Shown here: piece after piece, positions 15,592-62,377 of the stretch
Layout: every line of letters starts with the position of its first letter
How positions within the stretch are numbered: position 1 is the first letter of the stretch
DNA from: an uncultured Sphingomonadaceae bacterium
GTDB lineage: Bacteria > Pseudomonadota > Alphaproteobacteria > Sphingomonadales > Sphingomonadaceae
Reading direction: 5' to 3'
Assembly (NCBI GenBank): GCA_903871605.1
Contig: CAIQHF010000019.1
Location: 62,001 to 126,000 of the forward strand
Length of the DNA stretch: 64,000 bases
Notes under the pieces: generated by a model
Database searches by the model: none
Told to the model about the DNA's origin: nothing
Seen by the model: the letters and a program-made list of their open reading frames with translations, nothing else
Made by a program: the position numbers and the translations under genes

Positions 15592-15597
15592 TCGTTC

Positions 15598-16048: not shown

Positions 16049-16057
16049 TCGCGCCTT

Positions 16058-16087
16058 CTCCGCCCGCGCCAAACGCGACGGGCGGAG
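16058..16087 (+). terminator. Strong hairpin, probable terminator
   Basis: CTCCGCCCG (16058-16066) pairs perfectly with CGGGCGGAG (16079-16087), with further CGC/GCG pairing inside. It lies 9 nt after the small ORF stop. There is no long T-run (CGACTTTC follows), so termination is inferred from stem strength and position. Confidence 0.5.
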
Positions 16088-16149
16088 CGACTTTCGGGCG
16101 GTAAGGCCGTTCTCCCATCACCGCCCTCGGGCCTCACGGAGACGCTCCC

Positions 16150-16608: not shown

Positions 16609-16618
16609 TCGTCCAGGA

Positions 16619-18907: not shown

Positions 18908-18996
18908 GTCCGTCCCCTTCACCGATCGAACGCGCCGCTTGCCACGAGGATGCGCCGCGGCGGGCGACTTTCTCGAGATCATGCTATGCCCGGCAG

Positions 18997-19626: not shown

Positions 19627-19717
19627 CGCATCCGCTGCGCGCCGCGCGCGTTGTCGGCTTGACAAGCCACCGCGCCCCGCGCGCCTATCGACCATCCTTC
19701 CGACCATTGGAGAGACG

Positions 19718-21013
19718 ATGAGCAAGCCCGCCCTACTGACCTCGTCGGGTCTGCATCTTCGCCCCGATCCGGCGCGCACGGTGATCCGGCCTTTCGATCT
19801 CGCCTATCCCGACGCCTTCCGGAACGACGCGCATCCGCGGATGGAGCAGATCGTCGACCGCGTGCTGTCGCTCGACGCCGCGAGCCTTGCCGATGAGCAT
19901 CGCGCGATCATCGCATCGCTCGACGAACGCCATCGCGACGTCGAGGGCCTGCTGAAGCGCCGGTTCGAGCAGGTTCGCGCGCAGGTGCCGCAGGCGGAAT
20001 CGCTGTCGGACGAGGCCAGGCTGGTCGTCGCGGCCTATTTCAGCGAGGAATATTCGTTCGAGGCGGCGGCGCTGTTCAATCCCAGCATGGTCGCGCGCGC
20101 CGATCAGACCGGCACCGCCCCCGGCGAGATCCGCTTCTTCCTGTCGCTACGGGGAATCGGCGAGGGGCATGTCTCGTCGGTCACCTTCCGCACCGGGACG
20201 TGGAGCGCCGCCAACGGCTTTGCGATCGACAATCCCAGTTCGCAGGCGGTGTCGCCACTGATCGAGACCTGCGCGAAGGGGGAAGAAACCGGCGTCACGC
20301 ACATCGTCTGCGAAGGCAGCCGCGACGTCTCGGAAAGCGTGCTGTTCCCGGTGACGCCGAGCCAGCGCCAGGGCATCGAGGATCTCCGCCTCGTCCGCTT
20401 CGTCGAGGACGACGGATCGGTCCATATCCTCGGCACCTATACCGCCTTCGACGGACGCGACGCGCGATCGGAGTTGCTGCGCGCGACGGGTTTCCGCAAT
20501 TTCGCGATGACGCCGCTCAAAGGATCGGCCGCCTCCGCCAAGGGCATGGCGCTGTTCCCGCGCCGGATCGACGGACGCTATTTCATGCTGGGCCGGCAGG
20601 ATAATGAAAGCATCTGGCTGCTCTCGTCGGACGACCTCTACAGCTGGGATGGCGGCGCCAAGCTGGTCTCGCCGCGCTACCCCTGGGAGTTCGTCCAGAT
20701 GGGCAATTGCGGCGCCCCGATCGAAATCGACGAGGGCTGGCTCGTGCTCACCCACGGCGTCGGCATGGTTCGCAACTATTGCATGGGCGCGTGCCTGCTC
20801 GACAAGGCCGATCCCTCCAAGCTTCTTGCGCGCACGGTCGAGCCGATCCTGCGGCCGAGCCCGCAGGAGCGCGACGGCTATGTCCCCAACGTCGTCTATA
20901 GCTGTGGCGCAATGGTACACGACCGGACGCTGTTGCTGCCCTACGGCGTCGCCGACAATTTCGCGACCTTCGCGAGCGGCTCGGTCGACGATCTGCTCCA
21001 GTCGATGGCATGA
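19718..21013 (+). CDS. GH130 family mannoside phosphorylase-like protein
   Basis: 431-aa five-bladed beta-propeller protein of glycoside hydrolase family 130, whose members mostly phosphorolyse beta-mannosides to mannose-1-phosphate. Start at 19718 with a GGAGAG site; the ORF track's 36 extra codons are upstream noise. Landmarks: FNPSMVARADQTG, EGSRDVSESVLFPVTPSQ, GRQDNESIWLLSSDDLYSW, GNCGAPIEIDEGWLVLTHGV and VVYSCGAMVHDRTLLLPYGVAD. No signal peptide, so cytoplasmic. The stop overlaps the start of a Kir-type channel gene. A GH47 alpha-mannosidase is 5 kb away, hinting at mannoside use, but they are not one operon. Confidence 0.88.
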   Translation: MSKPALLTSSGLHLRPDPARTVIRPFDLAYPDAFRNDAHPRMEQIVDRVLSLDAASLADEHRAIIASLDERHRDVEGLLKRRFEQVRAQVPQAESLSDEARLVVAAYFSEEYSFEAAALFNPSMVARADQTGTAPGEIRFFLSLRGIGEGHVSSVTFRTGTWSAANGFAIDNPSSQAVSPLIETCAKGEETGVTHIVCEGSRDVSESVLFPVTPSQRQGIEDLRLVRFVEDDGSVHILGTYTAFDGRDARSELLRATGFRNFAMTPLKGSAASAKGMALFPRRIDGRYFMLGRQDNESIWLLSSDDLYSWDGGAKLVSPRYPWEFVQMGNCGAPIEIDEGWLVLTHGVGMVRNYCMGACLLDKADPSKLLARTVEPILRPSPQERDGYVPNVVYSCGAMVHDRTLLLPYGVADNFATFASGSVDDLLQSMA

Positions 21014-21900
21014 CGCGCGCGCCGCGGCGCCCGCGCCGGCGCCATATCGATCTCGGCAGCTTCGAGGCGGTCAAGATCGGCGGCCCCGGCGCCTTCGTCG
21101 ATCTCTACTACGCGCTGATGGAGATACGCTGGCCGGCGTTCTTCGCGCTGGTGTCGGCCGCTTTCGTGCTCGTCAATCTGCTCTTCGGGCTGCTCTATGC
21201 GGCCCTCCCCGGTGCGATCGCCAATATGACGCCGGGATCGATCGCCGACGGATTCTTCTTCTCGGTCGAGACGCTGGGGACGGTCGGCTATGGTAATATG
21301 GCGCCGGCGACGCGGCTGGGCCATTCGATCGCCGCCACCGAAATCCTGCTCGGCCTGTTCTTCTCCGCGACGATGACGGGGCTGATCTTCGCGCGCTTCG
21401 CACGCCCCCGCGACAGCGTCCTGTTCAGCCGCGTCGCGGTGATCAGCGAGGTCGGCGACCAGCTGATGCTGATGGTTCGTCTCGCCTCGATCCGCGCGCG
21501 TCCGCTCGCCGACGTCAGCGCGCAGATGTCGTGGCTCGAGCGGATCGAGCTTGCCGACGGCCGCGTCTTCAGGCGGCTCAACGACCTGCCGCTGGTCCGC
21601 GCGCAGAACCCCGCGCTCGCGCTCGCCTGGACGTTGGTCCACGTCATCGAGCCCGGCTCGCCGATGCTTGCAGCGCTCAAGGGGACCGATCGTTTCCAGC
21701 TCACCGTAACGGTGGGCGGGATCGACACGCTGCTCGCCAGCCAGACGCTCGGCGGCCACAGCTATCGTCGCGAGGATATCCGCCTGGCGCATGACTTCGA
21801 GGACGTCATCCTCGACGAGGATGGCATCATCCACCTCGATCTCTCTAAACTCCACGACGTTCGACCGAGCGCCGCCCGCGCGCAGGAGCCGCCCGCTTAG
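21010..21900 (+). CDS. Inward-rectifier (KirBac-type) potassium channel
   Basis: 296-aa ion channel: basic N-terminus, slide-helix region (DLYYALMEIRWPAFF), TM1, pore helix, the selectivity filter TVGYGN at residues 91-96, TM2 (ILLGLFFSATMTGLIFARFARP), and a C-terminal immunoglobulin-like cytoplasmic domain. Length and layout match bacterial Kir channels, which form tetramers conducting potassium. ATGA overlap with the GH130 gene implies translational coupling to it, though no functional link is known to me. Confidence 0.93.
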   Translation: MTRAPRRPRRRHIDLGSFEAVKIGGPGAFVDLYYALMEIRWPAFFALVSAAFVLVNLLFGLLYAALPGAIANMTPGSIADGFFFSVETLGTVGYGNMAPATRLGHSIAATEILLGLFFSATMTGLIFARFARPRDSVLFSRVAVISEVGDQLMLMVRLASIRARPLADVSAQMSWLERIELADGRVFRRLNDLPLVRAQNPALALAWTLVHVIEPGSPMLAALKGTDRFQLTVTVGGIDTLLASQTLGGHSYRREDIRLAHDFEDVILDEDGIIHLDLSKLHDVRPSAARAQEPPA

Positions 21901-22002
21901 AGGCCTTGCTTTCCACGCGGAACCGCGGCACGCTCACTTCCGACACGCGAAAACGGAAACGCAGAGTTCCGGACCGCGTCGATCGATCGAGAGGATGACG
22001 AT

Positions 22003-46171: not shown

Positions 46172-47875
46172 ATGACACTCCAGGGATGGCTGCTCATCCT
46201 CGCCTTCGTCGGGCTTCTGCTCGCGCTCACCAAACCCATGGGGCTGTGGCTCCACGCGCTTTACGAGGGCCGGCGCACGCCGCTGCACGGCGTGCTCGGC
46301 CCCATCGAGCGCGGCTTCTACAAGGTCTCCGGCGTCGATCCCACCGAGGAGATGGGGTGGAAGCGCTACGCGGTCCACATGCTCGTGTTCAACGCGGTGC
46401 TGATGCTCTTCACCTATGCGGTGCTGCGCCTGCAGGCGGTGCTGCCGCTCAATCCCAACGCATTCGCGGCGCTGCCCCAGCATCTCGCCGCGAATACCGC
46501 GATCAGCTTCACCACCAACACCAACTGGCAAAGCTATTCGGGCGAGTCGACGATGTCGAACCTCAGCCAGATGCTCGGCCTGACCATCCACAATTTCATG
46601 AGCGCCGCGACGGGCATCGCGCTCGCCTTCGCCTTCTTCCGCGGCTTCGCGCGGCGCGAGAGCCGCACGATCGGCAATTTCTGGGCGGACTGCACGCGCA
46701 TCACGCTCTATCTGCTGCTGCCCATCTCGATCGTCTATGCGCTCTATCTGGTCGCCTCGGGCGTGCCGCAAACGCTCGCGGGATCGGTCGACGTAACGAC
46801 GCTCGAGGGCGCCAAGCAGACGCTCATCCTCGGACCCGTCGCGAGCCAGGAGGCGATCAAGATGCTCGGCACCAATGGCGGCGGCTTCTTCAACGCCAAT
46901 TCGGCGCACCCGTTCGAAAATCCTTCGGCCGCGACCAATTTCGTCCAGATGATCTCGATCTTCCTGATCGGCTTCGGCCTGACCTGGACGTTCGGCAAGG
47001 CGGTCGGCAACACCCGCCAGGGCTGGGCGATCCTGTCGGCGATGATCATGATCTTCCTTGTCGGCGTCGCCGTCTGCTATTGGCAGGAGGCGTCGGGCAA
47101 CCCGATCGTCCACCATCTCGGCGTTGTCGGCGCCAACATGGAGGGCAAGGAGGTGCGCTTCGGCGCGGCCGCCTCGGCGCTGTTCGCCGCGGTCACCACC
47201 GCGGCGTCGTGCGGCGCGGTCAATGCGATGCACGACAGCTTCACCGCACTCGGCGGCATGATCCCGCTGATCAACATCCAGCTGGGTGAGGTCGTCGTCG
47301 GTGGCGTCGGCGCGGGCGTGTACGGCTTCCTGCTGTTCGCGATCCTCGCGGTGTTCGTGGCGGGCCTGATGGTCGGCCGCACCCCCGAATATGTCGGCAA
47401 GAAGATCGAGGGCCGCGAGGTCAAGCTCGCGGTGCTGGCGATCGCGGTGCTGCCGCTGATCATCCTCGGCTTCACCGCGGTCAGCGCAGTGGTGGGCGCC
47501 GGGCTGGCAGGGCCGCTCAACAAGGGTCCGCACGGCTTCACCGAGATCCTCTACGCCTTCACCAGCGCGGTCGGGAACAATGGTTCGGCGTTCGCCGGGC
47601 TGACCGCGAGCACGCCCTATTACGACTCGATGCTGGGCGTCGCGATGTGGATCGGCCGCTTCTTCATCATCGTGCCGATGCTCGCCATCGCGGGGTCGCT
47701 CGCGGCGAAGAAATACACCCCCGAGACCGCCGGCTCCTTTCCGACGACAGGCGTGCTGTGGGTCGGCCTGCTGGTCGGCATCGTGCTGATCCTGGGTGGT
47801 CTCACCTTCCTGCCGAGCCTCGCGCTCGGCCCCATCGCCGATCATCTCGCGATGATCGCCGGCAAAACCTTCTGA
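46172..47875 (+). CDS. kdpA: Potassium-transporting ATPase, channel-like subunit KdpA
   Basis: 567 aa, the potassium-binding membrane subunit related to K+ channels. Pore-like segments include [53 protein letters not shown] and [12 protein letters not shown], the four degenerate filter repeats. High-affinity K+ uptake, normally induced under K+ limitation. Part of kdpFABC. Confidence 0.98.
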
Positions 47876-47886
47876 GGACGACGCTG

Positions 47887-49917
47887 ATGGCGCGCACCGC
47901 AACCAAATCGCTGTTCACCGCCGAGCTGATAATGCCCGCGGTCGGCGACAGCTTTCGCAAGCTCAACCCCAAGGAGCTGATCCGCAATCCGGTGATGTTC
48001 ACGACCGGCGTCGTCGCGACCCTGATGACGGCGCTGCTCGTCATCGGACAGGACGGGCTCGGCGTCGGCTTCAAGCTCCAGCTCGTCGTCTGGTTATGGC
48101 TGACGGTGCTGTTCGGCACCTTCGCCGAGGCGCTCGCCGAAGGCCGCGGCAAGGCGCAGGCGGCCTCGCTGCGCGCCACCAAAGCCGAGCTCACGGCAAA
48201 GCGCGTCAAAGGCGACGGCACCGAGGACGTCTCCGCCAGTGCGCTCCGGGTCGGCGACATCGTCCATGTCCGGACCGGCGAGCTGATCCCATCCGATGGC
48301 GACGTCGTCTGGGGTGTCGCTTCGGTCAACGAAGCCGCGATCACCGGCGAAAGCGCCCCGGTGATCCGCGAGGCGGGCGGCGACCGCTCCGCCGTCACCG
48401 CGGGCACGCGCGTCATCTCGGACGAGATCAAGGTCCGGGTCAGCGTCAATCCCGGGCAGGGCTTCCTCGATCGCATGATCGCGCTCGTCGAGGGCGCCGA
48501 GCGCCAGAAGACGCCCAATGAGATCGCGCTGACCATATTGCTCGTCGGGCTGACGATCATCTTCCTGATCGCGGTCGGCACGATTCCCGGCTTCGCGTCC
48601 TATGCGGGCGGGTCGGTGCCCGTCGCGATGCTGGCCGCGCTGCTGATCACGCTGATTCCCACAACCATCGCGGCTTTGCTCTCGGCGATCGGCATAGCGG
48701 GCATGGACCGGCTGGTGCGCTTCAACGTGCTCGCCAAATCGGGTCGCGCGGTCGAGGCCGCGGGCGACATCGACACGCTGCTGCTCGACAAGACCGGCAC
48801 GATCACGATCGGCGACCGCCAGGCGACCGAATTCCGCCCGGTGACCGGCGTCACCCCCGCCGAGCTCGCCGAGGCGGCGCTGCTCGCGAGCCTCGCCGAC
48901 GAGACCCCCGAGGGTCGATCGATCGTGCTGCTCGCGCGCGAGACATTCGGTGTCAGCCATGCGCAGCTGCCGACGGGCGCCGAGATCATCCCGTTCACCG
49001 CGCAGACGCGCATCTCGGGGGTGAGGATCGGCGAGATGCTGATCCAGAAGGGCGCGGTCGATTCGGTGTTCCGCGCCAATCCCGGATCGGGGGACGGCGC
49101 GGCCGCGCAGGATCTGCGCCGCGCCACCGACGATATCGGCCGTGCCGGCGGCACCCCGCTCGCGGTCGCGCGCGACGGCCGGCTGCTCGGCGCGATCTAT
49201 CTCAAGGACATCGTCAAGGCAGGCATCCGCGAGCGCTTCGGCGAGCTGCGCCGGATGGGCATCCGCACGGTGATGATCACCGGCGACAATCCGCTCACCG
49301 CCGCGGCGATCGCCGCAGAGGCCGGCGTCGACGATTTCCTCGCGCAGGCGACCCCCGAGGACAAGCTCGCGCTGATCCGCAAGGAACAGCAGGGCGGCAA
49401 GCTGGTCGCGATGTGCGGCGACGGCACCAACGACGCACCCGCGCTCGCGCAGGCCGACGTCGGGGTCGCGATGAACACCGGCACGCAGGCGGCGCGCGAG
49501 GCGGGCAACATGGTCGATCTCGACAGCGACCCGACCAAGCTGATCGAGGTGGTGGGCCTGGGCAAGCAGCTGCTGATGACGCGCGGCGCGCTCACCACCT
49601 TCTCGGTCTCGAACGACGTCGCCAAATATTTCGCGATCATCCCGGCGATGTTCGTCGTGCTCTATCCAGGGCTCGCGGTGCTCAACGTGATGCATCTGGC
49701 GACGCCGCAGTCGGCGATCCTGTCGGCGATCATCTTCAACGCGCTGATCATCCCGCTGCTGGTGCCGCTGGCGCTCAAGGGGGTGAAATACCGACCGATC
49801 GGCGCCGGGCCGCTGCTCCGCCGCAATCTCGCGGTCTACGGGCTCGGCGGGATCATCGCGCCGTTCGTCGGCATCAAACTCATCGATCTGGCCGTCACCG
49901 GCCTCGGTCTCGCCTGA
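47887..49917 (+). CDS. kdpB: Potassium-transporting P-type ATPase KdpB
   Basis: 676-aa P-type ATPase subunit. Phosphorylated D301 in [12 protein letters not shown], actuator loop AITGESAPV, and hinge [18 protein letters not shown]. Start [10 protein letters not shown] at 47887, 11 nt after the kdpA stop; the ORF track's earlier start is in kdpA. It powers KdpA transport. Confidence 0.98.
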
Positions 49918-49928
49918 GGACAAACGAC

Positions 49929-50519
49929 ATGAGCAACGACATCACCGCCTCGCTCCGCCCCGCACTGGTCATGACCGGGCTGTTCGCCGCACTGCTGGGA
50001 ATCGGCTATCCGCTGGCGATGACGGGTATCGCGCAGGCGCTCTTCCCGCACCAGGCCAATGGCAGCCTGGTCGTGGAGAATGGCAGGCCGATCGGATCCG
50101 AGCTGATCGGCCAAGGCTTTGCGAGCCCCCGATATTTCCATCCGCGACCGTCTGCGGCCGGCAAGGGCTATGACGGCACGGCCTCGTCGGGCTCCAATTT
50201 CGGCCCCACCTCGCAACCGCTGGTCGACCGCATCAAGGGCGACATCGCCAATCTCAAACCGGCGGCGGCGGGCCGGCCGATACCCGCGGATCTCGTCACC
50301 GCCTCGGCCTCGGGTCTCGATCCCGACATCAGCCCCGCCGCGGCGCTCTATCAGGTGGCGCAGATCGCCAGGGTGCGCGGCATTCCCGAGGCGCGGCTGA
50401 CGCAACTGGTGAACGCGTCGGTCGAGACACCGATGCTGCCCTTCCTCGGCGATCCGCACGTCAACGTGTTCTCGCTCAACCGCCAGCTCGACGCGCTCGC
50501 CGCGCCGATCGAGCACTGA
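49929..50519 (+). CDS. kdpC: Potassium-transporting ATPase subunit KdpC
   Basis: 196 aa with one N-terminal membrane helix (ALVMTGLFAALLGIGYPLAMTG) and the KdpC domain (GSELIGQGFASPRYFHPRPSA; GSNFGPTSQPL; SASGLDPDISPAAALYQ). Start 11 nt after kdpB. A hairpin terminator follows rather than kdpD/kdpE. Confidence 0.97.
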   Translation: MSNDITASLRPALVMTGLFAALLGIGYPLAMTGIAQALFPHQANGSLVVENGRPIGSELIGQGFASPRYFHPRPSAAGKGYDGTASSGSNFGPTSQPLVDRIKGDIANLKPAAAGRPIPADLVTASASGLDPDISPAAALYQVAQIARVRGIPEARLTQLVNASVETPMLPFLGDPHVNVFSLNRQLDALAAPIEH

Positions 50520-51249: not shown

Positions 51250-52995
51250 ATGAGAGAATTGAGCTTTTCCGCGCGCGCGGTGCGGCCCTTCTCGCGCATC
51301 CTGCGCGTGACGCCGCCCAACATGGCCGACCTGATCGCGTTCGTGCTGCTCGCCGGCACCGCCGTACTGGTTATCCGCGGCGCGGTCGGCGTCGCCGAGC
51401 CGCTGTCGAGACTGTCGATCACCCCGGTCGCGCTCGATCCCTGGAACCTGCCCTGGTACGCGCTGCGCACGACGCTGCGCATGTTCGCCGCGTTGTTCGC
51501 CTCGCTGGTCTTCACGCTGGTCGTCGCCACGATGGCGGCACGCAGCAGGCGCGCCGAGCAGATCATCGTGCCCGCGCTCGACATCCTCCAGTCGGTCCCG
51601 ATCCTCGGCTTTCTGACCTTCACCGTCACCTTCTTCATGCACCTCTTTCCGGGCGAGCAACTCGGCGTCGAATGCGCGGCGGTGTTCGCGATCTTCACCA
51701 GCCAGGCCTGGAACATGGCGTTCAGCTTCTACCAGTCGCTGCGCTCGGTGCCGTCCGATCTCGAGGAGGTGTCGCGCGGCTTCGGGCTGTCGCCGATGCG
51801 GCGCTTCCTGCGGCTCGAATTACCCTTCGCGATTCCGGGGCTTGTCTGGAACGCGATGATGTCGATGTCCGGAGGCTGGTTCTTCGTCGTGGCGTCAGAG
51901 GCGATCACCGTCGGCAAGACCAGCGTCGCGCTGCCCGGGATCGGATCGTGGCTGGCGCTCGCGATCGCGCGGCAGGATGCGCATGCCGTCGCCTGGGCGG
52001 TGGGCGCGATGGGGGTACTGATCCTGCTCTACGACCAGCTCTTCTTCCGCCCGATCGTCGCCTGGGCGGACCGCTACCGCTTCGAGCAGACCGCCAGCGC
52101 CGAGCAGCCGGGCTCCTGGGCCTATGATCTCTTCCGCCGCACGCGGATGCTCAAGCTGCTGATGGGGCCGCTGCTCGGTGTCGGCCGCCTGCTGATGATG
52201 CTCGACGGCCCGGTGCGTGCCAAAGCCGCCAGACGCAGCGGCGAGCCGAGCCGGATCGGCGAGACTGCCTGGAAGCTGATCGTCGCGGTGCTGCTCGTCG
52301 CGGCGGCCTGGCTGATCGTCGACTATGTCGGGCGCACGCTGAGCTGGCGCGATGCGCTGACCGCGGTCGGCTATGCCTGCCTGACGCTGCTGCGCGTGAT
52401 CGTGTTGATCGCCGTGGCGAGCCTGATCTGGGTACCTGTCGGCGTGTGGATCGGGCTGCGGCCGCGATGGGCCGAGCGGCTGCAACCCGTCGCGCAGTTC
52501 CTCGCCGCCTTCCCCGCCAACGTGCTCTTCCCCTTCGCGGTGCTGGCGATCGTGCGCTGGCATGTGAGCCCGGGCATCTGGCTGTCGCCGCTGATGGTGC
52601 TCGGCACGCAATGGTACATATTGTTCAACGTCATCGCCGGCGCGAGCGTGATCCCGACCGACATGCGCGAGGCGGCCTCGATGTTCGGGGTGAAGGGCTG
52701 GCAATGGTGGCGCAGCGTCGCGCTGCCCGCGATCTTCCCTTATTACGTCACGGGCGCGCTGACCGCCTCGGGCGGATCGTGGAACGCGAGCATCGTCGCC
52801 GAGGCAGTATCCTGGGGAAACCGCCACCTCGAGGCGGCGGGGCTCGGCTCGTACATCGCCGATGCGACGGTGGCGGGCGACTATCCGCGCGTCGCGCTCG
52901 GCATCGCGACGATGTCGCTGTTCGTGATCGCCTTCAACCGGCTGGTGTGGCGCCCGATGTACGCCTTCGCCGAACGCCGTCTCCGCCTCGCCTGA
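51250..52995 (+). CDS. ABC transporter permease, two fused membrane domains
   Basis: 581 aa carrying two complete permease domains of the nitrate/sulfonate type in one chain. The first EAA-like loop is VSRGFGLSPMRRFLRLELP (about residue 175) and the second AASMFGVKGWQWWRSVALP (about residue 475); both sit between membrane helices. ATG behind AGGTGAG. The ATPase gene follows 24 nt later; no substrate-binding protein is present, unusual for an importer. Neighbouring Nramp-type gene suggests a metal, but the ligand is not shown by the sequence. Confidence 0.88.
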   Translation: MRELSFSARAVRPFSRILRVTPPNMADLIAFVLLAGTAVLVIRGAVGVAEPLSRLSITPVALDPWNLPWYALRTTLRMFAALFASLVFTLVVATMAARSRRAEQIIVPALDILQSVPILGFLTFTVTFFMHLFPGEQLGVECAAVFAIFTSQAWNMAFSFYQSLRSVPSDLEEVSRGFGLSPMRRFLRLELPFAIPGLVWNAMMSMSGGWFFVVASEAITVGKTSVALPGIGSWLALAIARQDAHAVAWAVGAMGVLILLYDQLFFRPIVAWADRYRFEQTASAEQPGSWAYDLFRRTRMLKLLMGPLLGVGRLLMMLDGPVRAKAARRSGEPSRIGETAWKLIVAVLLVAAAWLIVDYVGRTLSWRDALTAVGYACLTLLRVIVLIAVASLIWVPVGVWIGLRPRWAERLQPVAQFLAAFPANVLFPFAVLAIVRWHVSPGIWLSPLMVLGTQWYILFNVIAGASVIPTDMREAASMFGVKGWQWWRSVALPAIFPYYVTGALTASGGSWNASIVAEAVSWGNRHLEAAGLGSYIADATVAGDYPRVALGIATMSLFVIAFNRLVWRPMYAFAERRLRLA

Positions 52996-53019
52996 CCTGC
53001 CAAGACCGGAGTTGCATCC

Positions 53020-54333
53020 ATGGCCACCACCGCCACCGCCGTCTCTTCCCGCCCGCTCGTCGAGGTCGAGGCCGTCAGCCACAGCTACGGCCGGTCCGGC
53101 GCGACGGGCCAGGTGCTCGACAATGTCCACCTCACGCTCGTCGAGGACGAGATCGTCGGTCTGCTCGGCCGGTCGGGATCGGGCAAGTCGACGCTGCTGC
53201 GCTCGATCGCCGGGCTGATCCGGCCGAGCGAGGGCGAGGTACGCCTGATGCCCGACGCGGCCGGCACGCCGCCCAGCGTCTCGATGGTGTTCCAGACCTT
53301 CGCGCTATTCCCCTGGCTGACCGTGCTCCAGAATGTCGAGCTCGGGCTCGAGGCGCAGCGTGTGCCGCCCGCCGAGCGCCGCACGCGCGCGCTCGCGGCG
53401 ATCGACCTGATCGGGCTCGACGGCTTCGAGAACGCCTATCCCAAGGAGCTGTCCGGCGGGATGCGCCAGCGCGTCGGGCTCGCCCGCGCGATCGTGGTCA
53501 ATCCCTCGCTTCTGCTGATGGACGAGCCCTTCTCCGCGCTCGACGTGCTCACCGCCGAGACGTTGCGCACCGACCTGCTCGATCTCTGGGCGGAAAAACG
53601 GATGCCGATCAAGTCGATCCTGATCGTCACGCACAATATCGAGGAGGCCGTGCTGATGTGCGACCGCATCCTCGTCTTCTCGTCCAATCCGGGCCGCGTC
53701 GCCGCCGAGATCGTCGTCGACCTGCCGCAGCCGCGCGACCGGCTCGATCCGCCGTTCCGCGCGCTGGTCGACGACATCTATGCGCAGATGACCGCGCGGA
53801 CGGTCGCGACGCCCAGCCGCGACGGCACACCCGCCGGCGCGACGCTCGCGACCGCGCTGCCGATCGTCTCGACCAACGCGATGGCCGGGCTGATCGAGGA
53901 GGTCGACGCAGCGCCGTTCGACGGCACCGCGAGCATGGCGGAGCTGGCGGATTCGCTCCAGCTCGAGATCGACCAGCTCTTCCCGATCGCCGAGGCGCTG
54001 CAGCTGATGCGCTTCGCCGACCTGGCCGGCGGCGATGTCCGCCTCACCGCCTCGTCGCGCCAATATGCCAGCGCCGACGTCGATCAGCGCAAGGCTATCT
54101 TCGCGCAGGCGCTGCTCGCGCACGTGCCGCTCGCGCAGCATATCCGCCGTATCCTCGACGATCGCGCGAGCCATGCCGCGCCCGCGCGCCGCTTCCGTGA
54201 CGAACTCGAGGATCATATGTCCGAGGATTATGCCGACGAGACGCTACGCGCGGTGACGCATTGGGGCCGCTATGCCGAGGTCTTCGCCTATGACGAGGAC
54301 CGCGATCTGTTCAGCCTCGACAATCCGACCTGA
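53020..54333 (+). CDS. ABC transporter ATPase with C-terminal AAA-associated domain
   Basis: 437 aa. Nucleotide-binding domain to about residue 250: Walker A GRSGSGKST (50-58), Q-loop MVFQTFALFPW, signature LSGGMRQR, Walker B LLLMDEPF, H-loop IVTHNIEE. An extra domain of about 160 residues follows (ADSLQLEIDQLFPIAEALQLM; LRAVTHWGRYAEVFAYDEDRD), matching the ABC C-terminal AAA-associated type, probably regulatory. Pairs with the fused permease. Confidence 0.92.
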   Translation: MATTATAVSSRPLVEVEAVSHSYGRSGATGQVLDNVHLTLVEDEIVGLLGRSGSGKSTLLRSIAGLIRPSEGEVRLMPDAAGTPPSVSMVFQTFALFPWLTVLQNVELGLEAQRVPPAERRTRALAAIDLIGLDGFENAYPKELSGGMRQRVGLARAIVVNPSLLLMDEPFSALDVLTAETLRTDLLDLWAEKRMPIKSILIVTHNIEEAVLMCDRILVFSSNPGRVAAEIVVDLPQPRDRLDPPFRALVDDIYAQMTARTVATPSRDGTPAGATLATALPIVSTNAMAGLIEEVDAAPFDGTASMAELADSLQLEIDQLFPIAEALQLMRFADLAGGDVRLTASSRQYASADVDQRKAIFAQALLAHVPLAQHIRRILDDRASHAAPARRFRDELEDHMSEDYADETLRAVTHWGRYAEVFAYDEDRDLFSLDNPT

Positions 54334-54462
54334 TCGCAAACCCGTGCGACCGCGCCACGAAAGAATACGCAAGCGTAACTTGCTCCGTCCGCCATCCTCG
54401 TGTCTTTTCGCGCCTTTCCCGCGTGCCGCCCGATCGGTGGCCGGCCGGCCAAGGGGGTGTGG

Positions 54463-55731
54463 ATGACATTCGGTGAGCGCTTCCGCTCCGTCGCGCTCTT
54501 CGAGAAGCTCGGACCCGGCCTGATCACCGGCGCCGCCGACGACGATCCCAGCGGCATCGCCACCTATTCGCAGGCGGGCGCCCAATTCGGCTTCGGCCTG
54601 CTCTGGACGATGGTGCTGACCTATCCGCTGATGAGCGCGATCCAGCTGATCAGCGCGCATATCGGCCGCGTGACCGGCTGCGGCCTCGCCAAGAACATGG
54701 GCGACGTCCTGTGGCGGCCTCTCGTCACCGCGCTTGTCGCGATGCTGTTCGTCGCCAACACGATCAACATCGGCGCCGATCTCGCAGCGATGGGCGAGGC
54801 CGGCGAGCTCGCGCTCGGATCGGGCGCGCACGCCTTCACAATCGGCTTCGCGCTGCTGTCGCTCGGGCTGCAGCTGTTCATCCCGTATCGGCGCTACGCG
54901 CATCTGCTCAAATGGCTGACGCTGACGCTGCTGGCCTATGTCGCCGTCCTGGTCATGATCCACCTTGACTGGCGCGCGATCGCGATCGGCCTGGTCGTGC
55001 CCAGGCTCGAGGGCGCGGCTGCGGTCACCACGATCGTCGCGATCTTCGGGACGACGATCAGCCCCTATCTCTTTTTCTGGCAAAGCGCGCAGGAGGTCGA
55101 GGATGTTGCGCAGGACCCCGAGGCCGAGGCGCTGGTCAAGGCGCCCGATCAGGCCGATGCCGCCTTCGGCCGGATGCGGTTCGATACGTTCATGGGCATG
55201 GCGATCTCGAATTTCGTCGCGGTGGCGATCATCGTCGCGACCGCCGCGACGATCCACACCGCGGGCGGCACGACGATCAACACCGCTGCCGACGCCGCGC
55301 GCGCGCTCGAGCCGCTTGCCGGAAAATTCGCTTTCCTGCTGCTCAGCCTCGGCATCATCGGGACGGGTCTGCTGGCGGTACCCGTGCTCGCCGGGTCCGC
55401 CGCCTTCGCGGTCGGCGAGGCGCATGGCTGGACATGCGGCCTCGAGCATCGGCCGCAGGAGGCGGTGGGCTTCTACACCGTGATCACGCTGGCGACGCTG
55501 CTGGGCATCGCGATCGACTGGTCGCCGCTCGATCCGATCAAGGCGCTGTTCTGGAGCGCAGTGATCAACGGCGTCGTTGCGGTTCCGATCATGGCTGCGA
55601 TGATGATCGTCGTCACGCGCAAGAGCGCGATGGGCAAGTTCGTCGCTTCGCCGCTGCTCGTCGTCTCGGGCTGGATCGCCACCGCCGTCATGGCCGCCGC
55701 CGCCGTCGCGATGTTCGTGCTGCCGGGTTGA
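54463..55731 (+). CDS. Nramp-related divalent metal transporter, atypical site
   Basis: 422 aa, about 11 helices. TM1 reads GPGLITGAADDDPSGIATYS: the Nramp DPGN metal site is DPSG (residues 28-31). In TM6 the canonical MPH is replaced by SPY (GTTISPYLFFWQS, near residue 200). Such changes mark Nramp-related outgroups whose ion preference differs from Mn/Fe transporters. ATG at 54463 after AGGGGG; the ORF track adds 21 codons. 129 bp after the ABC ATPase on the same strand; TACGC-AA-GCGTA in that gap is a minor inverted repeat. Confidence 0.88.
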   Translation: MTFGERFRSVALFEKLGPGLITGAADDDPSGIATYSQAGAQFGFGLLWTMVLTYPLMSAIQLISAHIGRVTGCGLAKNMGDVLWRPLVTALVAMLFVANTINIGADLAAMGEAGELALGSGAHAFTIGFALLSLGLQLFIPYRRYAHLLKWLTLTLLAYVAVLVMIHLDWRAIAIGLVVPRLEGAAAVTTIVAIFGTTISPYLFFWQSAQEVEDVAQDPEAEALVKAPDQADAAFGRMRFDTFMGMAISNFVAVAIIVATAATIHTAGGTTINTAADAARALEPLAGKFAFLLLSLGIIGTGLLAVPVLAGSAAFAVGEAHGWTCGLEHRPQEAVGFYTVITLATLLGIAIDWSPLDPIKALFWSAVINGVVAVPIMAAMMIVVTRKSAMGKFVASPLLVVSGWIATAVMAAAAVAMFVLPG

Positions 55732-55765: not shown

Positions 55766-56662
55766 TCAGGCGCCGAGCGCGGCGGTGGTGTCGTCGAAGA
55801 GCGCGTCGACCGACAGGCGGTGCGGGATGATCTTCTGGTCGAGCGCCCAGTCGATTGCGAGCTCGATGCCCTTGCGATTGGCCTCGAGCCCGATCGGCGG
55901 ATAGATCGCCGGCACGCCGCCGTCGGTCGCCGCGCGGCTTTCGACGAGCATGCGGTGGATTTCGCCGACGATGTCGGGCCGTTCGCGTGACAGCGTCTCG
56001 TGGACCACGAACATGTGGTTGATCGGCACCACGCCCTCGCGCGCGAACCAGTCCTTGGCCGCCTCGAAGGGCTCGGGGACGAGATAGGCGACGCGCGGAT
56101 CCTTGGGCAGGTCGACGCCCTGCAGCGTCGCGGTCAACTCACCGTCGAGCATCATCTGGCCGATATCCGAGCCCTTGGGCAGCCGCTCGGTGTTGGCGGG
56201 ATCGGTATATTCGAGCAGATGCCCCTCGCCGACGGTGCACCAGGTCACCTTGTCGAGATCGACGCCATATTCGTGGCGCAGGATGCCGCGGATCCACAGC
56301 CCGGTGGTCTGCGCATAGCTGCGCACGCCGACGCGCTTGCCCTCGATGTCGCGGGGCTTGAGATCGGGGAACAGCTCCTTGTTGAAACCCGCGCAATGAT
56401 GCTGGAAGCGGCCGTTGACCGGGATCGGCAGCGCGACATAAGGCTTGCCGTAGCATTTCGCCTGCAACAGCGTGACGATCGCGAGCTCGCCGCAATCATA
56501 GGCATTCTCGCGCAGCATCGCCTTGAAGCCGTTGTGCGCCTGGTCGGGCCCGCAAATGTCGAGCGTGACGATGTCCGAGCGCACCCGGCCGTCGCGGATC
56601 GCCTTGGTGACGGGATAGTCGGCGAGATTGGTCTTGAGCGTCGTGGTCGTGGTGGTGGCCAT
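55766..56662 (-). CDS. 4,5-dihydroxyphthalate decarboxylase (Pht5)-like protein
   Basis: 298 aa with a periplasmic-binding-protein fold (DIEGKRVGVRSYAQTTGLWI; RGILRHEYGVDLDKVTWCTV). Such proteins are often labelled ABC substrate-binding, but the N-terminus (MATTTTTTLKTNLADYPVTK) has no signal peptide and no ABC partner is in the operon, so an enzyme of the 4,5-dihydroxyphthalate decarboxylase type is more likely. Last gene of the aromatic operon, 13 nt after the ThDP enzyme. A relative lies at 63551. The exact substrate is unknown. Confidence 0.75.
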   Translation of the reverse strand: MATTTTTTLKTNLADYPVTKAIRDGRVRSDIVTLDICGPDQAHNGFKAMLRENAYDCGELAIVTLLQAKCYGKPYVALPIPVNGRFQHHCAGFNKELFPDLKPRDIEGKRVGVRSYAQTTGLWIRGILRHEYGVDLDKVTWCTVGEGHLLEYTDPANTERLPKGSDIGQMMLDGELTATLQGVDLPKDPRVAYLVPEPFEAAKDWFAREGVVPINHMFVVHETLSRERPDIVGEIHRMLVESRAATDGGVPAIYPPIGLEANRKGIELAIDWALDQKIIPHRLSVDALFDDTTAALGA

Positions 56663-56675
56663 GCCCCCAGCTCCT

Positions 56676-58226
56676 TCAGTAGAGTTTGACTTCGATCAGC
56701 ACCGGGCCCTCGGCGTCGACCGAGCGGACCATCGCGGCGTGGAAATCCTCGGCGCTGTCGACGCTCACCGACGGCACGCCCATGCTCTTGGCCATCGCGC
56801 ACCAGTCGATCGTCGGGCGATCGATGTCGATCATCGCCATCGCCTGCGGCCCCGGCGTCTGCCCGGCGCCCATGTTGGTATATTCGGCCTTGAGGATCGC
56901 ATATTGGTTGTTGGCGAAGATGATCGTCGTGATCGGCAATCCTTCGCGCGCGTGCGTCCACAGCGATTGGATCGTGTACATCGCCGACCCGTCGCCGACC
57001 ATGCAGAAGGTCCGCCGGTCGGGGCAGGCGAGCGAGGCGCCGGTGGCGACGGGGGTGCCGTAGCCGATCGAGCCGCCCATGTTGTTGATCAGGTCGTGCG
57101 GCCTGGCGCCCATGGTGAACCCCATCGACTGGCGCCCGGTGGTGAGCGATTCATCGACGAGGATGCAATTGTCGGGGAGCGCCGCGGCGAGCGCATAGGC
57201 GATGCTCTCCGGGGTCAGCGCGCCCGAGGGGGCCGGGGTCTCGACCCGCGCTTGCACCAGGCCCTGCACGCCGCCGAGCCCGAGCGCGTCGACGAGCATC
57301 TCCAGCCCCGCGACGCTGTCCTCGTCGGTCTCGACCAGCGGATGGACGATCGCCTCGGGTCCCTTGAGCAGGCTCGGCTTGTCGGGATAGCTGAAGAAGG
57401 CCACCGGCTCCTTGGTCTCCAGCGTCACGATGTGCCTGAAGCTGTTGAGGAAGGCCTGCGCCTGCGGCACCGCATAGGGGATGCGCTCGAGCGGCGTGCG
57501 CCCTGCCCCACGCTCGATCCGCGCGGTGAAGAATTGCGAGCCGAGCCGCGCACCGGTGCCCGCCGCGATCTTGCCGGCGAGTTCGAGCGCACGGCCCCGC
57601 GTCGCCTTGTTGCCGAGGATGATCAGCACCGGCTCGCCCGAGCGCAGCACGCGCGCGACCTGGTCGACGCGCGCCGGATCGGGGGCGGCGGGTGTCTTGG
57701 CGAGGCCCTTGGGCACCACGACGTCGCCCGCCTCCTTCCAGGCGGTATCGCCCGGCAGGATCAGCGTCGCGATCTGCCCGGGATGCTCGGAGGCCTTGGC
57801 GACAGCATTGGCGGTGTCCCAGGCGATCGTCTTCGAGCTTTCGGCGCGGCGCACCCAGTGGCTCAAGGGTCGCGCGAGGCCCTCGATGTCCGAGGTCAGC
57901 GGTGGATCATATTTGAGGTGGCTCGCCGAATGCTCGCCGACGATGTTGACCATCCCCGAACTGGCGCGCTTGGCATTGTGGATGTTGGCGAGACCGTTGG
58001 CGAGCCCCGGCCCGAGGTGGAGCAGCGTCGACGCCGGCGTGTCGCGCATCCGGTACCAGCCGTCGGCAGCGCCCGTGCACACCCCCTCGAACAGGCAGAG
58101 CACGCTCTTCATCCGCGGATTCTCGAGCGCGGAGAGGAAGTGCATCTCCGACGTGCCGGGATTGGCGAAACAGATGTCGACGCCCTGGTCGACGAGCGTG
58201 GTGACGAGGCTTTCGGCGCCGTTCAT
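56676..58226 (-). CDS. Thiamine-diphosphate-dependent enzyme (acetolactate synthase/benzoylformate decarboxylase-like)
   Basis: 516 aa, three-domain ThDP enzyme. Cofactor-activating E47 in LCLFEGVCTGAADG; ThDP/Mg motif GDGSAMYTIQSLWTHA ending in FANNQYAIL. Members of this group decarboxylate 2-oxo acids or ligate them; the size and pattern resemble unassigned acetolactate-synthase-like proteins in catabolic clusters rather than IlvB. Begins 2 nt after the aldolase stop. Decarboxylation of an aromatic 2-oxo acid feeding the ring-cleavage pathway is inference. Confidence 0.85.
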   Translation of the reverse strand: MNGAESLVTTLVDQGVDICFANPGTSEMHFLSALENPRMKSVLCLFEGVCTGAADGWYRMRDTPASTLLHLGPGLANGLANIHNAKRASSGMVNIVGEHSASHLKYDPPLTSDIEGLARPLSHWVRRAESSKTIAWDTANAVAKASEHPGQIATLILPGDTAWKEAGDVVVPKGLAKTPAAPDPARVDQVARVLRSGEPVLIILGNKATRGRALELAGKIAAGTGARLGSQFFTARIERGAGRTPLERIPYAVPQAQAFLNSFRHIVTLETKEPVAFFSYPDKPSLLKGPEAIVHPLVETDEDSVAGLEMLVDALGLGGVQGLVQARVETPAPSGALTPESIAYALAAALPDNCILVDESLTTGRQSMGFTMGARPHDLINNMGGSIGYGTPVATGASLACPDRRTFCMVGDGSAMYTIQSLWTHAREGLPITTIIFANNQYAILKAEYTNMGAGQTPGPQAMAMIDIDRPTIDWCAMAKSMGVPSVSVDSAEDFHAAMVRSVDAEGPVLIEVKLY

Positions 58227-58228
58227 GG

Positions 58229-59083
58229 TCAGTATCCCGCCAGTTCGCGGCCCTGGCCGACGACGCCGTAGCTGCGCGACGGGGCCGACATCAGGAATTT
58301 ATAGCCTTCGCCGAGCAGCCGCTCGACATTCTTGGCGCCGGTATGCGGGTTGCCGACCACGACCTTGTGCTTGTGGCAGGTCTCGACGATCCGGCGCATG
58401 GCACCCATCACCTCGGGATGCTCGTACTGGCGCGCGTAGCCGAGCGCCTGGCTGAGATCGCCCTCGCCGATCAGGCAGAAGCCGATGCCCGGGACGTTGG
58501 CGAGCATGTCGTCGAGATTCTCGATCGCCTCGGGGCTCTCGATCATCAGCCCGACGAGCAACTCGCCGTGCGGCGCGAGCGGCCAGACGTCGGCCTTGGC
58601 GTAATAGTCGGGCTGGCTGAGGCCCCAATAGCGCGCCGCCGTCGCCGGACCGTCGCCGCGCACCCCCTTGGGCTCGTACAGCGCCGCGCCGGTCGGCTTG
58701 GCGTAGCGGCACGAGGCAACCGCATTATACGCCTGCGCGGCGGTCGCCACATGCGGGGTGATCACGCCGTAGACGCCGCGATCGAGCACCTGCTTTGCCT
58801 GGAACTGGTTCATCTCGACGCCGTTCGCCGGGATCCGCGCGATCGGCGTGACCGACGGCGCGACCGATCCGGTCTCTGCGATCTTCTTGCGATTGAGCAT
58901 GTACTGCAGCGCGTCGCCGAGCGCCGCGACATCATAGGGGTTGTGCTCCATCTCGAACACGATGCCGTCATAGGGCGCGTCGGTCATTTCCTGTGCGGCG
59001 AGCTTCTCGACCTTGGAGAAGCAGGTGAAGGCGGGCTTGCCCGCTTCCCAGGCGCGGATGATGCCGTTGAGACGTTCGCTCAT
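58229..59083 (-). CDS. HpcH/HpaI-family aldolase
   Basis: 284-aa class II (metal-dependent) aldolase of the HpaI/citrate-lyase family. Features: DGIVFEMEHNPYDVAALGDAL, RIPANGVEMNQFQAKQVLDRG, and LMIESPEAIENLDDMLANVPGI followed by GEGDLSQALG. These enzymes split 4-hydroxy-2-oxo acids to pyruvate plus an aldehyde or oxo acid. Start MSERLNGIIR at 59083, ATGA overlap with the dioxygenase; the track's 13 extra codons lie in that gene. In this operon it could cleave 4-carboxy-4-hydroxy-2-oxoadipate (inference). Confidence 0.87.
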   Translation of the reverse strand: MSERLNGIIRAWEAGKPAFTCFSKVEKLAAQEMTDAPYDGIVFEMEHNPYDVAALGDALQYMLNRKKIAETGSVAPSVTPIARIPANGVEMNQFQAKQVLDRGVYGVITPHVATAAQAYNAVASCRYAKPTGAALYEPKGVRGDGPATAARYWGLSQPDYYAKADVWPLAPHGELLVGLMIESPEAIENLDDMLANVPGIGFCLIGEGDLSQALGYARQYEHPEVMGAMRRIVETCHKHKVVVGNPHTGAKNVERLLGEGYKFLMSAPSRSYGVVGQGRELAGY

Positions 59084-60102
59084 TCTGCTGCTTCCTTGCG
59101 TGCTGCTTCCTCGGGGGCCCAATACATGAAGCCCATGCCCTCGCCGGTGCCCGCGGCGGTGCGCCAGCAGGGGATGTAGTCGACCAGCGTCATCTCGGCG
59201 CCGGTGTGCTGCAGCGCCATCATCACGATGCTGTAGATCTTCACCTCGGAGGTGCCCGACTGATAATAGCCGTCTGGTATCGCGGCGAGGCCGTCGTAAT
59301 CATAGGCGGCGAGCTTGCCCATCACGTCGCGGTCGAACTGCTCGTCGTTGACGAAGTGTGACAGCCCGCCCGACGCGACCACCGCGACGCGGACGTCCTC
59401 GGGCCACGCCTCGATCGCGTCGCGCAGCACGCGGCCGAATGCGATACAGCGCTTCATCGACGGCTGGGTCGGCGGGTAGAAGAGGTTCATCAGCACGGGC
59501 ACGTGCGGCGGCGGCGCGTCGCCCATGATCTGGTGATAGACGAAGCTGTAGGCGTGCGGGACCACCGGATAGTCGGGCTTCATCCCCTGCCGCTGCGCCA
59601 TCCAGACATTCTCGGGCCAGGACTGCAGGTCGTTGAGATCGAAGCCTTCCTTCTGGAAAGCCTGGATCAGATAGGTGGCGAGCGCGGGATAGGCCTTGTG
59701 GACGACATGATGGTCGGGCGCATAGACGGGCCGCTGCGGCGGTCCGTTGTGGACCTCCTCGCCGGTGTAGATGGTGATCGACGGCGATTGATCGGGCCAG
59801 ATCTCCTTCTGGTCCTTGCCGAGGATGATCGCGACGTCGACATTGGCGCGCTTATAGGCCGCCGCCATCTCGTCGAGCGCGACGCGGCATTTTCGCGCGC
59901 GCGTGGTGCGCTCCTCGAGCGTCAGGAACGGCGCGAACGCGGCGCCGCGCTCCGCCTCCAGCGCATCGTAGGTCCAGGTCCTGTTGCGATACCAGAGCTC
60001 GGGATTCTTGCGGTCGCGCTCGCCATTGGTGAGCCAGTCCTCGGGCGCCTGCCCGAGCATGCCCGAATGCGGCACCGCCATCCCGAATACGATCTGCGCC
60101 AT
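59080..60102 (-). CDS. LigB-type extradiol ring-cleavage dioxygenase
   Basis: 340-aa class III Fe(II) extradiol dioxygenase. Iron ligands expected from LigB: H12 in AVPHSGMLG and E286 in GTSEVKIYS; the acid-base histidine lies in SGGLSHFV. LigB-type enzymes open protocatechuate, gallate or 3-O-methylgallate. No LigA-type small subunit gene is adjacent and no LigA domain is fused, so it differs from both LigAB and DesB. Translationally coupled to the aldolase (ATGA). Confidence 0.88.
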   Translation of the reverse strand: MAQIVFGMAVPHSGMLGQAPEDWLTNGERDRKNPELWYRNRTWTYDALEAERGAAFAPFLTLEERTTRARKCRVALDEMAAAYKRANVDVAIILGKDQKEIWPDQSPSITIYTGEEVHNGPPQRPVYAPDHHVVHKAYPALATYLIQAFQKEGFDLNDLQSWPENVWMAQRQGMKPDYPVVPHAYSFVYHQIMGDAPPPHVPVLMNLFYPPTQPSMKRCIAFGRVLRDAIEAWPEDVRVAVVASGGLSHFVNDEQFDRDVMGKLAAYDYDGLAAIPDGYYQSGTSEVKIYSIVMMALQHTGAEMTLVDYIPCWRTAAGTGEGMGFMYWAPEEAARKEAAE

Positions 60103-60174
60103 GTCTCAATTCTCCTGCCCGCCAGGGCATTGGGGTGCCGGCCTACTCTGCGCGCGCACGCTGCCGCCTATCCA

Positions 60175-61494
60175 TTATGCGTCGGCGGATATTGCTTCCT
60201 GCGCCTCGCCGGGCACCCTCGGCGCCCATTTGCGCTGCAACAATATCAGCGTCGAGGCGGCGCCGATCAGCAGGAAGACGAAGATCACCAGCATCGGCAG
60301 GTCGTAATTATTGTTGCTGATCTGGAGCAGCCAGCCGGTCAGCGCGCCCGCCACGCCGCCTGCCAGGCTGGTCGCGACCTGCTGCACGCCCGTCACAATC
60401 CCGACCGCCTGCTTGGGGATCAGCGTCAGCCGGCACAGCGCGAGGCTGTTGGCGGTGGTCAGCCCCAGGAAGGACAGCGAGAAGATGTTCCAGAACAGCG
60501 CGGTCGACAAAGACTGCGCATGAACGCCGAGCAGCACGGTGCAGGCGCCGAGGAAGCCCGCGATCACGAAGCTCTTGCGCACCACGACGGGATCGCCGCC
60601 GCGCTGGATCAGCTTGTCCGCCGCCCAGCCCGCCGCAACCGCGACCAGCGCGATGCCGGCGAAGCTGAAGAAGGTGTAGAGCCCCGACCCCTTCAGCGAC
60701 AGATGCCGCTGATTGTGCAGATAGTCGGGCATCCACTGCATGCAGAAGAAGGTGAAATAGCCGTAGCAGAAGTTGATGATCATCGCGCCCCACACGACCG
60801 GGCTCGTGAGGATGCTTCCGAAGGTGACCGTCGAGGCCCCTCTGCGCATCACCACGCGCGCCTCGCCCGAGGGAAGATCATTGGGCACGACCGCGACCCA
60901 CGCCGCGACCCAGACCAACCCGATCGCGCCGGTGACCAGAAACATCGCCTGCCATCCGTAATTGGTGATCAGCCACGGTGCGGCGAGCGCACCGATCGCC
61001 GGGCCGAACTTGTTACCCATCGTGAAGATGCCGACCGCCGTGCCGCTCTGCCCCTCCGCGAAATTATGGCGGATCCAGCGGTAACTGGCGGGCATCACCA
61101 CCGCCTCGGCCGCACCGACGATCAGCCGCATCATCAGCAGCGCGCCGATCGAACCGACCAGCCCGATCGCCGCCATCGCCGCGCACCAGAGCAGAAAGAT
61201 GATCGCATAGGGCCATTTTACCCCATAGCGATCGACCAGCCAGCCCGTCCCCATCTGCATCAGCCCATAGGACCAGAAGAACACCGAATTGACCCAGCCG
61301 CGATCGACGCTCGACAGCTTGAAATGCGCGACGAACGGCCCGTAGGCCAGCGCCGACCCCGTGCTCGCCCGATCCGAGAAGGCGATCATCACGCCGATCG
61401 CGAGCAGGAACAGGATTCCCCACCGCGCGAAGGCATGCGGCCTGGCGATGCTCGTCGCGGCATGCGGATCGAATGCCGTATCCACTAGCGCCAT
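60175..61494 (-). CDS. MFS transporter, anion:cation symporter type
   Basis: 439 aa, 12 helices. After TM1 comes AFSDRASTGSAL; motif A-like LVDRYGVKWPYA and GAAEAVVMPASYRWIRHNF are typical of the ACS family, which imports organic anions such as aromatic acids. Start MALVDTAFDP at 61494; the ORF track overruns into the amidohydrolase. Central position in the aromatic operon suggests it imports the pathway substrate. Confidence 0.88.
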   Translation of the reverse strand: MALVDTAFDPHAATSIARPHAFARWGILFLLAIGVMIAFSDRASTGSALAYGPFVAHFKLSSVDRGWVNSVFFWSYGLMQMGTGWLVDRYGVKWPYAIIFLLWCAAMAAIGLVGSIGALLMMRLIVGAAEAVVMPASYRWIRHNFAEGQSGTAVGIFTMGNKFGPAIGALAAPWLITNYGWQAMFLVTGAIGLVWVAAWVAVVPNDLPSGEARVVMRRGASTVTFGSILTSPVVWGAMIINFCYGYFTFFCMQWMPDYLHNQRHLSLKGSGLYTFFSFAGIALVAVAAGWAADKLIQRGGDPVVVRKSFVIAGFLGACTVLLGVHAQSLSTALFWNIFSLSFLGLTTANSLALCRLTLIPKQAVGIVTGVQQVATSLAGGVAGALTGWLLQISNNNYDLPMLVIFVFLLIGAASTLILLQRKWAPRVPGEAQEAISADA

Positions 61495-61522
61495 GGGCTC
61501 GTCTTTCCGGTCATGTCGTTGA

Positions 61523-62377
61523 TCACTCCGCAAGCGACGGATACAGATGTTGCGCGGTGCCGTGGAAGATCCACTCGAGATCGTCGGACGAAAGCGTTGC
61601 GAGCCGGCTCTTGGCGGTCGCGAGTATCTCCGACAGCGTACCCGGCGAGGTCGGGAAGTTCGATCCCCACGCCATCCGCCTGGCGCCGAAGGCCTCGACC
61701 AGTCTGGGGAACAGCGTCTCGGGAGTAGCCGCGCCCTTTTTGGAATCGCCCATGATCCGCGGGGTGAGCTTGAGATAGATATTCTCGATCGGCGCCAGAT
61801 CGAACAGGCTCTGCGCCGCCGCATAGGGCGGACCGTCGGTGACGTCCGGCCGCCCGAGATGATCGAGGATGATCGCGACGTCGGGGAAGCGCCTGGCCAG
61901 CGCGGTCACCTGCGGCAGCCCGACCGGGCCGGTCTGGATGCACATCGACAGGCCGAGTTCGCCGCACACGTCCCAGGCGGGGAAGGATTTCGGATCGTCG
62001 AGCTCGCTCGCATCGAACTCCTTGGTGCTGCCGCCGGTGAACAGCCGGAGGCCGCCCAGTCCCTTGGCGACCCAGTCGCGGATCACGTCCGGCGCGTCGA
62101 GCTGGAGCACGTCGACCGAGCCCACCGCCAGCAGGCGCTCAGGGTAGCGCGTGCAGGCATCGACGACATAGCTGTTGTCGAAGCCATAGGTGGTCGAGCT
62201 GTGGACGACGGCGGCCTTAGCGACGCCGGCCTCGTCCATCGCCGCGATCAGGCTCTCGACCGTGCTCGGCCGCTCCTGCGACCAGTCCGATCGTTTTCCG
62301 AACAGCGGCGCCGGCGGATAGGCGCGCTCGTCGTCCGAAATGACGTGCGGGTGGATGTCGACATAGTGAGACGGCAT
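61523..62377 (-). CDS. Amidohydrolase-family lactonase, LigI-like
   Basis: 284-aa amidohydrolase_2 barrel with the metal HxH motif VDIHPHV, and AIILDHLGRPDVTDG, closely resembling the corresponding segment of 2-pyrone-4,6-dicarboxylate lactonase (LigI), plus MAWGSNFPTSPG near the C-terminus. It probably hydrolyses a lactone or carboxylated ring-fission product. Precedes the MFS gene by 28 nt and follows the LigJ-type gene by 122 nt. Confidence 0.8.
   Translation of the reverse strand: MPSHYVDIHPHVISDDERAYPPAPLFGKRSDWSQERPSTVESLIAAMDEAGVAKAAVVHSSTTYGFDNSYVVDACTRYPERLLAVGSVDVLQLDAPDVIRDWVAKGLGGLRLFTGGSTKEFDASELDDPKSFPAWDVCGELGLSMCIQTGPVGLPQVTALARRFPDVAIILDHLGRPDVTDGPPYAAAQSLFDLAPIENIYLKLTPRIMGDSKKGAATPETLFPRLVEAFGARRMAWGSNFPTSPGTLSEILATAKSRLATLSSDDLEWIFHGTAQHLYPSLAE

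Follow-up and report, generated by a model that had tools for sequence, protein, structure and literature searches.

What does an ABC transporter import when no binding protein is encoded with it, and does an Nramp-type gene that follows it belong to the same machinery? These questions are raised by a locus in the window, the whole stretch of 64,000 nucleotides of uncultured Sphingomonadaceae DNA that was analysed, in which the open reading frames of a 581-aa permease, a 437-aa ATPase and an Nramp-family protein succeed one another on the + strand:

51250-52995, + strand: fused permease, 581 aa, with both BPD_transp_1 halves in one chain (two Pfam BPD_transp_1 stretches, E 2e-29; AF2)
52432-52944, + strand: second permease half, residues 395-565 (the best BPD_transp_1 stretch)
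53020-54333, + strand: ABC ATPase, 437 aa (Pfam ABC_tran, E 9e-32; invariant motifs)
53941-54294, + strand: C-terminal AAA-associated domain of the ATPase, PF09821 (AAA_assoc_C), residues 308-425 (E 5e-43; AF2)
54463-55731, + strand: Nramp-family gene (Pfam Nramp PF01566, E 2e-80), originally predicted to start at GTG 54400
54544-54555, + strand: helix-1 site of the Nramp protein, D-P-S-G (DxxG), from a motif scan and alignment to EleNRMT
55048-55065, + strand: helix-6 site of the Nramp protein, G-T-T-I-S-P (TxxS), from the same scan and alignment

The original prediction described these genes correctly one by one: both permease domains lie in a single polypeptide, the ATPase carries an AAA-associated tail, no binding protein is encoded alongside, and an atypical Nramp gene follows on the same strand. 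For the latter, ATG 54463 is preferable to GTG 54400, as it is preceded by AAGGGGG; the gap from the ATPase stop codon is then about 130 bases. The answer proposed here, from sequence comparison, is that the permease-ATPase pair fairly probably imports Mg2+ (and possibly Mn2+), is driven by ATP, needs no receptor and has been mis-annotated as an anion transporter.

The surroundings of the locus are as follows. A kdpABC operon lies directly upstream of the pair (46172-50519, + strand; KdpC was called from Pfam, KdpA and KdpB from reading of the ORFs). Convergent with the ABC and Nramp genes, the - strand of 55766-61611 encodes a 4,5-dihydroxyphthalate-decarboxylase-like protein, a TPP enzyme, an HpcH/HpaI aldolase, a LigB-type extradiol dioxygenase and an MFS transporter, which looks like an operon for aromatic-ring degradation. 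The decarboxylase family has a periplasmic-binding-protein-like fold, and its member here (55766-56662, - strand) was considered as a hidden receptor. It resembles 4,5-dihydroxyphthalate decarboxylase (PDB 9jp7, E 9e-21) and was not taken for a receptor because an obvious signal peptide is lacking and the gene is part of the opposite-strand aromatic-catabolism cluster.

The two ABC proteins have the features of an importer of the BPD_transp_1 type. Walker A, the LSGG signature, Walker B and the H-loop are invariant in 46 ATPase sequences, and the permease, with its two fused BPD_transp_1 halves, is consistent with the COG4986 family, of which it is a putative member. AF2 models the permease (pLDDT 75) as repeated six-helix halves and the ATPase with a mean pLDDT of 87. 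The C-terminal ATPase domain is well defined (pLDDT mostly above 90), is composed of helices and short beta hairpins, and can be read as winged-helix-like. As PF09821 is absent from the ATPases of the relatives in enterococci and E. albertii, this tail is optional, and its role is probably regulatory. In Foldseek the ATPase matches NrtBCD and CmpBCD, driven by the nucleotide-binding domain, while the permease has weak fold matches to FbpBC, CmpB and NrtB. Such matches indicate kinship, not cargo.

Is the receptor simply encoded elsewhere in the neighbourhood? No binding-protein gene accompanies the pair in the window and none is conserved near its relatives; in the search of the pair's surroundings, an NMT1-type binding protein was found only in three Bradyrhizobium loci, where it is distant and on the opposite strand. 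NitT/TauT systems are defined by a binding protein encoded with the transporter, which is lacking near the window pair, and the scores fall below the curated equivalog cut-offs (77 against 209 bits for ntrB, 193 against 357 bits for the taurine ATPase). This bears on the annotated function, according to which the pair would import nitrate, sulfonate, bicarbonate or another organic or inorganic anion, its links to Mg2+ being incidental or a matter of charge balance. It counts against the Mg2+ reading that nitrate or bicarbonate is the cargo of the closest relatives with solved structures: NrtBCD and CmpBCD are neighbours in sequence as well as in fold, and the database names agree. However, these solved relatives are NBD/TMD homologues within a broad family, the NMT1-type protein is not conserved beside the pair, genes of nitrate, sulfonate or carbon-fixation metabolism are not recurrent among its neighbours, and M-box control (see below) also speaks against an anion. 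We regard anion import as quite unlikely and retain Mg2+ import as the preferred reading.

Permease relatives were collected from GTDB genomes; the 80 loci used are the best matches listed and form an uneven sample. In nearly all of these best 80 the ATPase gene follows the permease gene: the permease-ATPase pair is a conserved unit. The fused permease itself occurs in 21 of 299 sampled Pseudomonadota genomes. The trio, as opposed to the pair, is ruled out as a conserved unit. An Nramp gene adjoins the pair in a single one of the best 80 relatives (L114; 54% identical, Nramp upstream); one further relative (L079) has it at a distance of about 5 kb. Among the genomes searched, the three closest relatives, with permease identities of 75-80%, have no Nramp gene near the pair. 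The original prediction had joined the three genes into one uncharacterised metal or ion module. Its uncharacterised transport system without an adjacent receptor gene stands, with evidence pointing to a divalent cation, most likely Mg2+; the inclusion of the Nramp gene does not, because that gene is not conserved beside the ABC genes.

An Nramp gene is nevertheless found close to the pair again in Caulobacteraceae, Thermus, Mycolicibacterium and an E. faecalis-associated record (the Thermus and Mycolicibacterium copies, L126 and L124, being plasmid records). Two subfamilies are represented: the proteins of the window, L114 and Mycolicibacterium pair DPSG with TTIS or TTIT, those of Thermus and the enterococcal record have the classical DPGN and ATVM. 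A recurrence of this kind in distant lineages is expected of members of one metal-homeostasis network and not of one complex. One functional module, in which ligand sensing falls to the additional ATPase domain and not to a binding protein, would fit the common strand, the short gap and the recurrence near the pair in L114, Thermus and Mycolicibacterium. It is nonetheless highly improbable, given the single adjoining case among the best 80 relatives, with none among the closest, the two different Nramp subfamilies and the existence of relatives devoid of the extra domain.

The Nramp protein of the window merits separate description. Its metal site reads DPSG/TTIS, not the DPGN/AxxM (DxxN with A/CxxM) of classical Nramp/MntH proteins; another Nramp copy of the same genome, on contig C46, has DPGN/ATVM. 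The best solved relative is EleNRMT (7qia, E 6e-35), all others scoring 3e-15 or weaker. Like the NRMT proteins EleNRMT and CabNRMT (PMC8806188), it has DxxG in helix 1. In helix 6, however, it has TxxS where NRMTs have TxxA/T, the threonine being kept and a serine occupying the A/T position, and it belongs to a subfamily with the motif DDDPSGI. It is probably a separate Mg2+/Mn2+ transporter with an NRMT-like site. The same genome encodes another DPSG-type Nramp with 49% identity to the first (G000, contig C14, about 3000-22000; L186). An MgtA-type P-type ATPase is encoded no more than about 15 kb from it, and this region is perhaps another Mg2+ locus.

One indication of the cargo comes from RNA elements. 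Distant relatives of the pair sit behind Mg2+-sensing RNAs, and this makes the pair a probable Mg2+ importer. In an Rfam scan of plasmid and phage records carrying relatives of the pair, M-box RF00380 was found immediately before the pair in Enterococcus raffinosus (E 3e-29), ahead of an MgtC-permease-ATPase operon in Tsukamurella (E 8e-23), and directly ahead of the permease in E. gilvus and in the E. faecalis-associated record (L135). The mgtC leader RF02887 lies upstream of the E. albertii pair (E 1.5e-9), to which E. coli complete genomes contain no near match. Mg2+-responsive elements thus precede the pair in five records. An M-box is directly upstream of the operon in 4 of 10 non-Pseudomonadota loci; among these ten, none was found at the Thermus, Meiothermus, Allomeiothermus or Nostoc loci. 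An M-box has also been described in the 5'UTR of B. breve Bbr_0406-07, which includes a COG4986 permease (PMC5746004). The permeases concerned are 46-48% (Tsukamurella) or 32-39% (enterococcal and E. albertii) identical to that of the window, and Tsukamurella is the one case, among the records scanned, of a PF09821-type relative with an M-box directly upstream. Rfam detected no Mg2+-responsive RNA in the window, where there are two sub-threshold matches only, or at 19 other Pseudomonadota copies, where only a tRNA was found. The argument is at its weakest where RNA evidence obtained for distant relatives is extended to the branch of the window itself.

Some of these records contain further elements. 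On the Mycolicibacterium plasmid (L124), a very strong M-box (1377-1549, - strand, E 2e-33) serves a neighbouring gene for a PRC-barrel/CBS protein, which may be MgtE-related; with the DPSG-type Nramp gene and the ABC pair, it possibly forms a plasmid-borne Mg2+ island. A second M-box in L135 (6536-6703) lies behind the enterococcal ATPase gene and is followed only by a short ORF from about 6769, possibly encoding a Mg2+-regulated small, probably membrane, protein. L135 is OR846633.1, filed as an Enterococcus phage; it contains mntH, the pair and a tRNA cluster, and the stretch is therefore probably bacterial host DNA.

The Mg2+ reading draws further support from the transporter complement of the genomes and from MgtC genes next to the pair. 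Among sampled Pseudomonadota, CorA and MgtE are both absent from 8 of 20 pair-bearing genomes (the window's own being left out) and from 2 of 80 pair-less ones (Fisher p 2e-5). If short C-terminal fragments of CorA are discounted, 9 of the 80 pair-less genomes lack both (p 0.005). These p values ignore phylogeny, and the eight genomes represent five families. Four of the eight (G218, G079, G334 and G154) are also without Nramp and without MgtA above the cut-off, and G218, a genome of 0.9 Mb that has kept the pair, has no P-type match at all. Gene order and a GC content of 37-38% suggest that G079 and G334, which belong to one genus, are Bartonella. A gene of the CNNM family, which is generally linked to Mg2+ export, is present in seven of the eight. 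Many pair-bearing genomes, that of the window included, carry CorA and MgtE as well.

MgtC occupies 10 of 158 immediate slots beside the pair in BLAST comparisons, as against 1 of 939 farther ones (p 3e-8): 0 of 155 in second place, 1 of 149 in third and 0 of 635 beyond. Some of the ten loci are syntenic relatives and the independent events are therefore fewer. In Tsukamurella and Azospirillum, MgtC is part of the pair's operon, and the gene after the pair in Bradyrhizobium is of the CNNM/CorC type. By Pfam, 144 immediate neighbours comprise 16 histidine kinases, 12 OprB porins, 9 MgtC, at least four metal-sensitive repressors, at least two CorA and at least two CDF proteins. MgtC proteins and the products of M-box-controlled genes need not all move Mg2+.

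Genes of Mn and Fe homeostasis are found nearby too, which weighs against the Mg2+ reading. They include a VIT-family gene that follows the pair in Burkholderia savannae, the adjoining CDF genes, a Mn2+ riboswitch in the Azospirillum cluster and canonical MntH near the pair in Thermus and the E. faecalis-associated record. Together with the ferric importer FbpBC being the permease's closest fold match, they could mean that the pair imports Mn2+ (or Fe2+) and that its Mg2+ links reflect the overlap of two homeostasis networks. Yet the gene behind the riboswitch is that of a Na/Ca exchanger and not the pair, M-boxes or mgtC leaders are the elements that immediately precede the pair, and it is Mg2+ channels whose loss is enriched in pair-bearing genomes. 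Import of Mn2+ or Fe2+ is thus unlikely. K+ systems also recur around the pair: the window has kdpABC, the Allomeiothermus plasmid L127 carries kdpC in the pair's vicinity, and Kup genes stand beside the pair in two loci and in Methylobacterium. The pair might accordingly be induced at low Mg2+ but move a compensating solute (K+, polyamine or phosphate), or else export a cation. We consider this very unlikely: among immediate neighbours K+ genes are rarer than Mg2+-linked ones, a compensating solute would not take the place of CorA and MgtE, and the permease has an importer fold. Mg2+ import remains the reading that we favour.

From these comparisons we infer the substrate, the direction and stoichiometry of transport, the role of the C-terminal domain and receptor independence in vivo. 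Porins (OprB is frequently encoded next to the pair) would let the ions through the outer membrane, and from there they would have direct access to the permease. Both halves of the membrane domain would come from the single fused chain, with import powered by two ATPase subunits. The lack of a dedicated binding protein has a plausible explanation in the free Mg2+ that is often plentiful outside the cell. The C-terminal ATPase domain would probably tune activity to an intracellular signal, and the neighbouring NRMT-like Nramp protein would be a second, independent Mg2+/Mn2+ route within the same homeostasis network.

If this is true, a common "nitrate/sulfonate/bicarbonate" transporter is in fact a Mg2+ importer, and an anion pump is wrongly attributed to these genomes in reconstructions. 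The Mg2+ supply of some bacteria without CorA, MgtE and MgtA would be explained, and an importer-type ABC transporter could do without a receptor when its cargo is abundant. PF09821 tails would also gain a suggested function, as would the "duplicated permease" B488_11500 of Liberibacter crescens, which is listed in an essential gene set (PMC4837290).

How does the pair compare with known systems? It shares its duplicated permease with the COG4986 "ABC-type anion transport system, duplicated permease", to which B. breve Bbr_0407 and B488_11500 are assigned; the two papers concerned (PMC5746004, PMC4837290) give no substrate for it. With the NitT/TauT importers (NrtBCD for nitrate, CmpBCD for bicarbonate, SsuBC/TauBC), which are its top PDB and Foldseek matches, it has NBD and TMD homology in common, but it differs from them in its one-chain permease halves, its PF09821 tail, the lack of a conserved binding-protein gene and a genomic context of Mg2+ and not of anions. 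The Thermus thermophilus ferric importer FbpBC (9j4r), the permease's best fold match, aligns over both halves, though with 19% identity and a poor superposition (rmsd 12), and has no PF09821 tail. A search of the open literature, outside which most subscription journals lie, yielded no ABC importer of Mg2+, the "Mg ABC transporter" mentions being mislabelled MgtA/MgtB. With CorA, MgtE and MgtA/MgtB the pair would share Mg2+ uptake, and M-box control is known for Mg2+ transporters as a class (PMC4072509). In sequence, however, it is unrelated to these proteins, which are channels and P-type ATPases. There is about an even chance that it adds a class to the bacterial Mg2+ importers CorA, MgtE, MgtA/B and NRMT, one that is primary-active, receptor-less and spread over several phyla, and that would provide the sole recognisable Mg2+ uptake in some reduced or Bartonella-like genomes.
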